In this document: in pieces, positions 5,549 to 7,615 of the stretch
Layout of the letters: every line of letters starts with the position of its first letter
How positions within the stretch are numbered: position 1 is the stretch's first letter
Assembly: GCA_003157575.1 (NCBI GenBank)
Contig: PMKA01000460.1
Span: forward strand, 1-11,072
DNA from: Opitutia bacterium
GTDB taxonomy: Bacteria; Verrucomicrobiota; Verrucomicrobiia; Opitutales; Opitutaceae
DNA: 11,072 bases
Direction of reading: 5' to 3'
Program-made: the position numbers and the translations under genes
Notes under the pieces: model-generated
The model's input: the letters and a program-made list of their open reading frames with translations, nothing else
The model's database searches: none
What the model was told of the DNA's origin: nothing

Positions 5549-5809
5549 TCATTTCCCGAGCGCGGTCAGGACCGTGCGGAAATTGTTTAGGCACGCTTCG
5601 ATGTTCTCGACGATGTCCTCGGCGAGATCCTTCGGGTCAGGCAGATTATCGAGGTCGGCAAGACTGCTGTCTTTCAGCCAGAAGAGGTCGAGGCTCGTTT
5701 TGTCTCGGGCAACGATGTCCGCGCAGGCGAATTTCCTCCAGCGTCCCTCGGGATTCTTTTCAGCATCCCAGGTTTCCTTTCGGATGTGACGGTTGGCGGG
5801 GTTGTATTC
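5549..5809 (-). pseudogene. C-terminal remnant of a type I restriction-modification methyltransferase (HsdM)
   Basis: The 86 residues ending at the TGA (5549-5551) match the end of HsdM/N-6 DNA methylases. Visible landmarks are [40 protein letters not shown], a DLDNLPDP element and a final helix [16 protein letters not shown]. Full HsdM proteins have about 500 or more residues. Everything upstream is missing, including the SAM site and the NPPF catalytic motif. The frame stays open upstream to an ATG at 5953, but residues before EYNP do not resemble HsdM, so the breakpoint lies near 5810. The fragment cannot methylate DNA. It is probably the downstream scar of a deletion, lying 13 bases before rsmH. 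Confidence 0.75.
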
Positions 5810-5993
5810 TCCGGAGCTTGCTTCAGCTCGGGCTATTGTGGGGAAGAACAATCGCAGTAGAAGTCTGATTAACAATTGTTTCCGGTCCGCCCAAAAAAGC
5901 GGCTTGATTCCGATGCCGGTCGAACCGATGTTCCCCGACAGCTCATCAACCATGTGTTGAAGGAGTAACGAGGCCGTCCTGCAAAGGGCGGCT
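5810..5993 (-). other. unassigned sequence between the HsdM stub and the 168-residue gene
   Basis: The HsdM frame remains open through this stretch (possible ATG at 5953), but I recognise no family in the translation. A perfect 10-bp palindrome, AACAATTGTT, lies at 5871-5880. The base composition is more AT-rich than the flanking housekeeping genes. It probably contains the left deletion or rearrangement junction of the decayed hsd locus. No clear transposon end or target duplication is visible. Confidence 0.35.
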
Positions 5994-6500
5994 TCAGCAT
6001 TTCTGGGCAGCCCAGTAGGCATGGTGTTCCTTCCGATACTTTTCCTTCCGGTGAGGCCGGTCCACATGATAGTGCGTCCACGGCAGCACGTATTCGCCTC
6101 GATCAGCCACAATCATGAGATAGCTGAAATCGGGCAACGCCAGCAGGTATCGCTCTTCGCCGCGGCGTTCGTTCTTCCACCAGACGATCCGGTCGGCTTC
6201 CACCGGAACCCGGTCGAAGAAGACCGCCATCGTCGGACGCGGCCAGCGGATGCGCTCGCAGCGGCGCACGTCGATCAGCCGGTCGGCCTCACTCTCGCCT
6301 TCAGAGATGAAATGCCAGAACGTGGCCTCCTTCCCTTTGCTCAACGGGTGCCGCTTCAATCCCACCCGCTTCCCCGGCCACGCCGGGAGTGACCGCAGAA
6401 AGTCGGCGGTGAACCACGCGTAGAGCGTTTCTTCATAATTGGCCCAATCTCCGCCGGACTCCTCCAGCCGGACCAATGGGGGCAACCAATCCGCACTCAT
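5994..6500 (-). CDS. uncharacterised 168-residue protein, possible BECR-fold nuclease-like accessory protein
   Basis: The function is unknown. The protein is rich in Trp, Tyr, His, Arg and Lys. Landmarks are [11 protein letters not shown] (56-66), [13 protein letters not shown] (77-89), [10 protein letters not shown] (105-114), [14 protein letters not shown] (118-131) and the C-terminal run [20 protein letters not shown] (137-156). The Arg/His-rich end after a predicted hydrophobic strand recalls small phage-associated Barnase/EndoU/ColicinE5/RelE-like (BECR) RNases. This is a resemblance by eye, not a demonstrated homology. Its ATG overlaps the stop of the DUF3800 gene (ATGA at 6497-6500), so the two are almost certainly co-translated. 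There is no signal peptide or transmembrane segment. The gene looks intact although it sits inside a decayed restriction-modification locus. Confidence 0.8.
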
Positions 6501-7210
6501 CCGATGGCCCCTCCGCTCTGACCGCGCCAGATGAAGACGTTGAATTTCGCCTCCCTCAGCAGCGTTGATCGCAGCAGGGAATATCCGGTGCGTTCCCGGA
6601 TGCGGGCCACCAGCGCGTTCTTCGCCGGGCTCTGGTTCAGTCCGCGGTTGACGTAGCCGACCGCCCCCAGCAACAGGTCCGCGAGCTGGAGCTGTTCCAC
6701 CGCGTGCGACTCCACCACCTGCACCCGCTCGACGATATGGCGGTCGAAATCATAGAGGTTGTTGCACAACACCTCGTGCAGTTTTGCCACCTTTCCCGCG
6801 CTGCGGGTGTCCTTCTTGTCGAGATAAAGCCGGAATCGGGCTCCGGGCGTGAGCAGCGGCTCGAACAGGCCGAACATCATCTTGAAATACCAGTCGTCGT
6901 GGCTCTGTCCGAATTCGCCGTGACGCAAGCCTGCCTTGTGGGCCACCCAGGCGCGGAAATGCAGCTCATCTTCACCGAGGAAATAGTCCAACACCGCCCG
7001 GTAGAAGGCCACTTTTGCAGGCGAAACCTTGGACCATTTTATCTCGAAGCCGGGCGGCAGCCCGTGGGCCGTCTTGATTTCGCGCAACCGCACTGCGATC
7101 TCGCGCGCCTTGACCTGCGGGCACCAGCTCACGCCGAGGACCATCACCGGTTGATGGTCGTTTTCAAGATGGCAGCTCTCGTCGCAATAGAGATTGAAGC
7201 CTTGGGACAT
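6497..7210 (-). CDS. DUF3800 family protein
   Basis: The 237-residue product belongs to the DUF3800 family, often found in phages, mobile islands and next to restriction or toxin genes. It is suspected to be a nuclease with an RNase H-like fold. The family pattern is complete: N-terminal LYCDESCH with Asp10 and Glu11, FEIKWSK (55-61), a central FRLYLDKKDTR strand with Asp131, and QLADLLLGAVGY (175-186) with Asp178. These acidic residues would be the metal-binding set if it is a nuclease; this is inference. ATG 7210 was chosen because the conserved DES strand starts six residues later; the frame is open upstream to 7252. No strong Shine-Dalgarno sequence is visible. It follows the HsdR/HsdS-like remnant by 54 bases and overlaps the next gene by four bases, so all three probably share a transcript. 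Confidence 0.88.
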   Translation of the reverse strand: MSQGFNLYCDESCHLENDHQPVMVLGVSWCPQVKAREIAVRLREIKTAHGLPPGFEIKWSKVSPAKVAFYRAVLDYFLGEDELHFRAWVAHKAGLRHGEFGQSHDDWYFKMMFGLFEPLLTPGARFRLYLDKKDTRSAGKVAKLHEVLCNNLYDFDRHIVERVQVVESHAVEQLQLADLLLGAVGYVNRGLNQSPAKNALVARIRERTGYSLLRSTLLREAKFNVFIWRGQSGGAIG

Positions 7211-7264
7211 CGGCAAGGATCTGGCAACGAATTCGACAAAATTACAGAACAAGGATAATTTCCA

Positions 7265-7615
7265 TCAATTTTTAGAGGCTACGGTGGCCCTTCTGGTTCG
7301 GAGGCGCTTGGTTGTCTCGTCTTGGGCGGCGCGCTCGGCGCGAATGCGGGCGAGCAGCAAGCCGGCGGTCTGGTCCTCGACGACCGTGATGTTCTGACCG
7401 ACTTCCTCCTTCTTCGCCTCGATCACCCCAACGGCGTGCTTGTCAACGAACAGCACGTAATCCGCCGGACCTGTGTCGGTGGGGTATTCGCGAACGGCGA
7501 TGCCCGGGCTGGCGTTGAAGTCAATCGCCTTCCTGTCCTGAACAACCCAGCCGCATGCGACGAGCTGCGTGTCGATTTCCTGGCGGGCGAGTTGCTCTGG
7601 ATTGAGGTCCGGCAT
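7265..7615 (-). pseudogene. truncated HsdR N-terminus, apparently fused to an HsdS C-terminal tail
   Basis: Residues 1-85 of this 116-residue frame match the start of type I restriction subunit R: MPDLNPEQLARQEID, then CGWVVQDRKAID, then TDTGPADYVLF and VGVIEAKKE. Asp52 and the Glu66-x-Lys68 pair form the PD-(D/E)xK nuclease core. HsdR is normally around 800-1000 residues with a helicase motor; all of that is missing. After VVEDQTAG the sequence switches to LLLARIRAERAAQ followed by an Arg/Thr-rich end. This looks like the low-complexity C-terminal tail common in HsdS specificity subunits. The simplest reading is an in-frame deletion joining hsdR to hsdS near 7360. The HsdR part is clear; the HsdS part is inference from memory of such tails. 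The product cannot translocate or recognise DNA as HsdR or HsdS. Confidence 0.72.

Follow-up and report, generated by a model that had tools for sequence, protein, structure and literature searches.

Here, we describe the wreck of a type I restriction-modification locus in an Opitutia bacterium of the family Opitutaceae, which retains an intact gene pair, M04A and M04B, and a small structured RNA behind it. The window, i.e., the whole stretch of DNA that was analyzed, comprises the first 11,072 bases of contig PMKA01000460.1 (12,557 bases) of a draft genome (3.99 Mb, 546 contigs, 73.6% complete); among named genomes, those that hold the closest relatives of the pair are metagenome genomes of Opitutus. 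In two comparison loci with intact order, L028 (genome G026) and L029 (genome G018), the genes run hsdR-hsdS-M04A-M04B-hsdM on one strand throughout, which confirms the ancestral order underlying an original prediction for this DNA. Two deletions gutted the locus in the window: one removed most of hsdR and hsdS, the other the first 407 codons of hsdM. The block that they left intact (5904-7252) holds M04A, M04B, the RNA, and a promoter-like site, a unit that recurs elsewhere.

All hsd remnants lie on the reverse strand. An HsdR N-terminal fragment of about 92 codons (7358..7615) is joined in frame, with a fusion point near 7357, to a C-terminal HsdS tail (7265..7357) that terminates at its own stop. 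The HsdR fragment shares 64% identity over 91 residues with HsdR of L028 (tblastn), matches hsdR of L028 at 7603-7356 and of L029 at 7603-7360 (blastn), and scores 22.1 bits with Pfam HSDR_N, slightly below the cut-off of 25.1. The HsdS tail was recognized by blastn to hsdS 3' ends: positions 7357-7325 are 91% identical over 33 nucleotides (nt) to L029 and 84% over 25 nt to L028, and the remainder has diverged from the relatives. On the other side of the pair, an HsdM C-terminal fragment (5552..5806) covers residues 408-492, i.e., the last 85 codons, with 79% identity over 85 amino acids (aa) to HsdM of a third relative, L023 (tblastn), and a PADLOC MTase_I match (E 4.1e-17). Between the pair and hsdM, the match to L029 extends to 5892, followed by 85 unmatched nt, and hsdM resumes from 5806; this filler at the second deletion junction (5807..5891) aligns to none of L028, L029, and L023. 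At the first junction, a CCGCC run is present in both parental sequences, as read in the relatives, which would suit a short-homology deletion. A complete type I system requires the HsdR motor, the target-recognition domains of HsdS, and the catalytic part of HsdM; the window holds fragments only, and the original prediction was right about the HsdR piece with its likely HsdS tail and about the HsdM stub. The window's genome, at its given completeness, yielded no second close copy of HsdM or HsdR (HsdS was not searched there), the sole further matches being weak and located on contig C179.

The two genes between the fragments are intact by comparison with the two intact relatives and overlap in an ATGA, again as foreseen. 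M04A (6497..7252, reverse strand) is an open reading frame from TTG 7252 with a likely start at ATG 7210. It encodes a DUF3800 protein (PF12686, 43.8 bits, above the curated cut-off of 21) and matches the PADLOC profile PDC-M04A (PDLC04353) over residues 15-245 of 251 (E 2.3e-85). Its AlphaFold2 model (predicted local distance difference test, pLDDT, 90) has an RNase HII fold, which makes M04A a predicted RNase HII-fold protein. Residues D11, E12, D132, and D179 are invariant across 16 sequences and may correspond to the catalytic D-E-D-D tetrad of RNase HII. M04B (5994..6500, reverse strand, 168 aa), adjacent to M04A, matches PDC-M04B (PDLC04357; E 1.7e-59), and its AlphaFold2 model has a pLDDT of 94.5; it is at most a candidate for the fold of RelE/colicin D type RNases. 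Judged by these profile matches, the pair is already catalogued as the phage-defence candidate PDC-M04A/B in PADLOC; a literature search found no paper naming PDC-M04, and its candidate status stems from the database only.

The pair is not tied to type I systems. A tblastn comparison of 28 bacterial pair loci to a small reference set gave substantial hsd matches in 12, only short ones in two (L035, L090), a type IIG enzyme in four, and no match in ten. The stand-alone defence or toxin cassette envisaged by the original prediction is therefore plausible, although the unit has a third part, the RNA, which had been overlooked. Gene fusions involving the pair were also observed. In L036 (5322-10367) and L040 (9309-14228), DUF3800 is fused to the C-terminus of an Eco57I-type methylase-nuclease (~1,640-1,680 aa), with M04B adjacent; in L037 (9477-10127, genome G012), which is counted among the 28 pair loci with its fused and shortened pair, the M04A N-terminus is fused in frame to M04B, and an intact RNA follows the broken pair.

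The RNA (5939..5997, forward strand) is convergent with M04B and overlaps the M04B stop codon. It is about 60 nt long and consists of a hairpin with a 5-nt loop closed by CUC/GAG, a linker, and a terminator-like hairpin. The window RNA scores 77.4 bits (E 2.6e-16) with model R2, built for the strand opposite M04B, of which it is one training row. The ~60-nt stretch downstream of M04B is almost identical in the window, L028, L029, and L023, in which the third codon positions of the pair show merely 47-51% agreement with the window; in more distant loci the structure is kept and the letters have changed. Covariation in alignment A5 (16 sequences) was 0.468, compared to a maximum of 0.175 for slid structures, and in alignment A6, whose 36 sequences were fitted to R2 and hence lean to the model, 0.540 compared to 0.097. 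A5 was derived from the 15 rows of alignment A4 by omitting L035 and L036, which have a shifted stem, and adding rows of phage P1, Bbif-1, and Rhizobium; the long-loop members L032, L033, and L052 and the variants L038, L039, and L056 were excluded from both alignments.

Pairing, covariation, and folding show that this structured RNA element is real and is read on the strand opposite M04B. On that strand, 96.9% (A5) and 97.4% (A6) of cells pair, versus 87.2% and 88.6% for identical rows on the M04B strand, the lower value in A5 arising because 30 G-U cells turn into A-C. The earlier assignment to the M04B strand (model R1) was rejected on account of this 87% pairing with recurring A.C mismatches that become G.U on the other strand, and R1 was retained solely for searching. 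The strand assignment is strengthened by folding z-scores of -4.1 to -5.9 in five elements: -4.09 for the forward strand of the window, with none of 200 shuffles equally stable, and -4.4 to -5.9 for the RNA strand in L028, L029, L023, and P1. In the minimum-energy fold of the P1 element, the terminator stem is lengthened and the CUC/GAG closure opened. On the wrong strand, four sequences had been folded, with z-scores of -0.17, -2.57, -1.06, and 0.17, and three of them lent no support. A small peptide was likewise considered and rejected: a 20-aa open reading frame in L028 is uninterrupted in the window, but an extra nucleotide is inserted in L023 and the ATG is missing from L029.

Upstream of the RNA, a promoter-like TTGATT-17-GATGTT (5904..5932, forward strand) is retained in the wreck; it is a consensus match only and scores 7 of 12. 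Scores of at least 9 of 12 were reached by 21% of 92 distinct elements versus 4% of shuffles. T residues are more numerous after the second hairpin (5.1 of 12) than at the opposite end (3.3). We infer that the RNA would be transcribed and would silence M04A/M04B. No Rfam model matches the window RNA at its gathering score or at E ≤ 1, and on the other loci scanned no family covers the RNA, save for a one-base overlap with a tRNA in L179. The RNA may thus be new, being unreported in Rfam and in the literature covered, which did not extend to bioRxiv preprints; this falls short of proof.

Across bacteria, the RNA was detected at E ≤ 0.01 (R2) in 20 of the 28 bacterial loci with both genes, 13 of which had trained the model, and eight of 16 pair loci that lay outside the R1 training set and had not been fetched by the RNA match R1 at E ≤ 0.011. 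Where it matches, it is a single copy, downstream and on the opposite strand, and follows M04B within a few bases of the stop, across several phyla and in P1. No match was found in the pair loci L026, L038, L039, L092, L095, L096, and L098, and L097 matched weakly (E 0.49); from their sequences, L038, L039, and L095 (= L056) seem to have another type of hairpin at this position. The RNA was absent from all ten DUF3800 loci without M04B. In 189 genomes of relatives, M04A occurs in 15, the RNA in 16, and both in 11; in 387 genomes of the phylum, M04A (E ≤ 1e-10) occurs in 19, the RNA in 15, and both in nine. The latter nine include genome G192, where mere remnants, the M04A start and the M04B end, persist with the RNA still behind them (L099:10018-10292).

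The idea that the RNA is specific to M04 was rejected once copies without the pair appeared. In nine bacterial genomes, the RNA is present and no pair was detected (G013, G107, G119, G173, G183, G289, G326, G413, and G520), with weak scores in G183 (29.5 bits) and G119 (32.3 bits). Such solo copies neighbour hsdR in L086, L089, and L100 and a type IIG-like gene in L088. In Escherichia coli, a P1-like copy is present in 168 of 5,426 genomes, and 53 of 171 places are chromosomal; neither M04A nor M04B lies within the 12 kb examined around two chromosomal copies, L307 and L308. In L307 (1-6068), the solo RNA stands behind three genes, two of them long, and the two genes tested had no PADLOC profile match. 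In L017, an RNA resembling Rfam DUF3800-VIII (1238-1303; 39.6 bits, cut-off 40.2) precedes, in opposite orientation, a DUF3800 pair, which seems to have a different downstream hairpin.

Phages carry the RNA mostly without a detected pair. An exact search of viral contigs for a conserved 24-nt pattern of the RNA returned 72 contigs, and one altered pattern returned none. M04A and M04B were seen in only three of these 72 stretches (L143, L163, and L180) and not detected in the other 69, four of which offer <500 nt of sequence on the pair side (<1.3 kb in 15 of all 72). The viral copies retain the RNA structure. A tRNA lies within 1 kb for 22 of 79 viral RNA matches, within 7 nt in L179, L122, L176, and L149, and among 17 distinct viral sequences within 1 kb of a tRNA, the RNA is on the tRNA's strand in 16. 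None of the 80 listed among 120 viral loci with the tRNA pattern matches R2. Rfam scans of 64 of the 72 viral loci found, above gathering, DUF3800-VIII in seven, which are probably one SPbeta-like lineage, and abiF in one, both counts without a matched background. In this last contig (L111:10230-10459), abiF RNA and the new RNA lie side by side, 134 nt apart; the tRNA-rich viral contigs L166, L153, L146, and L128 hold ROOL RNA together with the new RNA.

Among named phage records, 29 contain the RNA core, i.e., P1, P7, SPbeta-like Bacillus phages, and two Vibrio phages; the model confirmed it in P1, SPBc2, phi3T, BUCT083, and one Vibrio phage. In SPBc2 and phi3T the RNA adjoins a DUF3800-VIII RNA; in the yonN-yonK gap of SPBc2 (SPbeta; L305:2500-2750) two copies precede it, and the record has no annotation of these. 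P1 and P7 encode an M04A homologue, RlfA/RapA (46% identity over 96% of M04A, E 8e-66, tblastn), both rlfA and rlfB of P1 match the PDC-M04 profiles, and the RNA lies 5 nt behind rlfB. M04A also occurs in 109 plasmid records, including 89 from Escherichia and 12 from Salmonella. A CRISPR interference study scored rlfA and rlfB as non-essential for plaque formation by P1 (PMC10695390), which agrees with what an accessory cassette would show.

The survival of the pair in the window can be viewed from the age of the deletions. Under a branch model with four taxa (the HsdR tree had three), the ratio of nonsynonymous to synonymous substitution rates (dN/dS, omega) on the window branch was 0.037 for M04A, 0.064 for M04B, and 0.044 for the HsdM tail, and the HsdR piece had 0.091 versus 0.026 elsewhere (p 0.009). 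Because synonymous sites are saturated on the window branch, omega is uninformative on post-deletion events: it shows purifying selection over the long window branch, not after the deletions, and the comparison across strains that the original prediction proposed cannot settle the reason for the pair's survival. Constraint on the HsdM tail equals that on the pair and is slightly relaxed in the HsdR piece, and neither fragment shows a stop or frameshift, which favours the first of the two predicted options, recent deletions, over selection after the death of the system. The two deletions look recent, and retention of the pair by selection is not proven. We consider it somewhat probable that nothing kept the pair and that it has yet to decay; this concerns retention only and is compatible with the role proposed below for the RNA. 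Two observations speak against it: two separate deletions both end outside the pair and RNA, and L023 (9890-12838) retains the pair, the RNA, and an intact, orphan hsdM, with hsdR and hsdS unmatched within the 20.7 kb examined and only weak HsdR matches on another contig of its genome. L023 represents a second, different route of losing the restriction partners. Immediately upstream of the hsdR fragment in the window, a Hel308-like DEAD-box helicase gene (7810-9963) lies on the same strand.

Several known systems resemble the block in part. PDC-M04 shares both strongly matching proteins and a frequent place beside hsd genes, but the catalogue models two proteins, to which the RNA found here adds a third part, and the restriction host is dead in the window. 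RlfA/RlfB of P1 share the profiles and the RNA, but follow repL and are annotated merely as 'possibly associated with lytic replication'. Rfam DUF3800-associated RNAs, such as DUF3800-VIII, are likewise small RNAs linked by name to DUF3800 genes, but none of their models matches the window RNA. For silencing by RNA, two precedents exist. AbiF is a phage-borne abortive infection protein silenced by the small RNA antitoxin RCd22 (PMC12373285); its protein is unrelated to ours, and its RNA has two motifs and lies upstream of its gene. In ToxIN, an RNA silences an RNase, and a pseudo-ToxI copy in phage phiTE serves as antidote (PMC10286901). Unlike ToxI, described in PMC12373285 as a tandem repeat located upstream on the toxin's strand, the new RNA is single, downstream, and on the opposite strand, which sets it apart from type III toxin-antitoxin systems.

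By analogy with AbiF/RCd22 and phiTE, the block could be a self-contained RNA-controlled nuclease system whose solo RNA phages carry as an antidote, a proposal that we regard as nearly as probable as its opposite. M04A would act as an RNase HII-fold nuclease and M04B as a second small RNase or as a partner. The RNA would bind and silence both, like the antitoxin RNAs of type III toxin-antitoxin systems and AbiF. A phage infection that halts RNA supply, or attacks the adjacent restriction system, would free the proteins, and phage growth would stop. Phages might counter with solo copies of the RNA, placed in tRNA arrays or beside other such RNAs. Embedding in restriction loci would then provide a back-up, and the window would show that the block can outlive its host system. 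This reading is suggested because the RNA accompanies the nuclease pair in bacteria and in P1 but occurs by itself in many phages, among tRNAs and other defence-linked RNAs. Extended to the whole family, with somewhat greater reserve, PDC-M04/RlfAB may be a three-part RNA-silenced nuclease defence, with copies of its RNA widespread in phages as an antidote, either singly or in arrays with other defence-linked RNAs; antidote arrays would then be present in SPbeta, phi3T, and tRNA-rich phages, and the complete system in P1.

It is also conceivable, though unlikely, that M04A and M04B form a ribonucleoprotein that recognizes or cuts invading nucleic acid and for which the RNA is essential as cofactor or guide, the solo phage copies being titrating decoys. 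Some class 2 CRISPR loci (V-A2, VI-F) have DUF3800 proteins as accessories, for which a part in interference or CRISPR RNA handling was proposed (PMC10910872 and PMC12669027), and the Foldseek and VIA structure searches with M04A list Argonaute chains beneath RNase HII. Beyond the terminator stem, however, the RNA contains no long variable segment of a target-like kind, and phages preserve it with its structure intact. Less probable still is that the RNA is independent of the pair, i.e., a general element of phages and defence islands (a terminator, a small RNA, or a folded DNA site for cassette exchange) that often comes to lie behind M04B. Such an element would account for the 69 of 72 viral copies and nine bacterial genomes without a detected pair and for the solo copies beside hsdR (three) and a type IIG-like gene (one), but not readily for the few bases that separate RNA and M04B stop in pair loci of several phyla and P1, or for the ten DUF3800 loci that lack both M04B and RNA; the G-U strand asymmetry and the strand shared with tRNAs argue for an RNA rather than a DNA site. 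Finally, it is very improbable that the junctions are assembly artefacts of this fragmented and incomplete draft genome, since the locus is flanked by open genes inside the 12.6-kb contig, HsdR and HsdS are joined in frame, and no second close hsd copy was found that could have been mis-joined.

The conserved RNA common to P1, restriction islands, and phages without the pair links rlfA/rlfB, DUF3800 proteins, and DUF3800-associated RNAs, and makes the question of an RNA-silenced nuclease defence testable in P1 and SPbeta. If it is true that phages carry arrays of antidote RNAs, the scanning of such arrays would be a new route to RNA-controlled defence systems and their antagonists.
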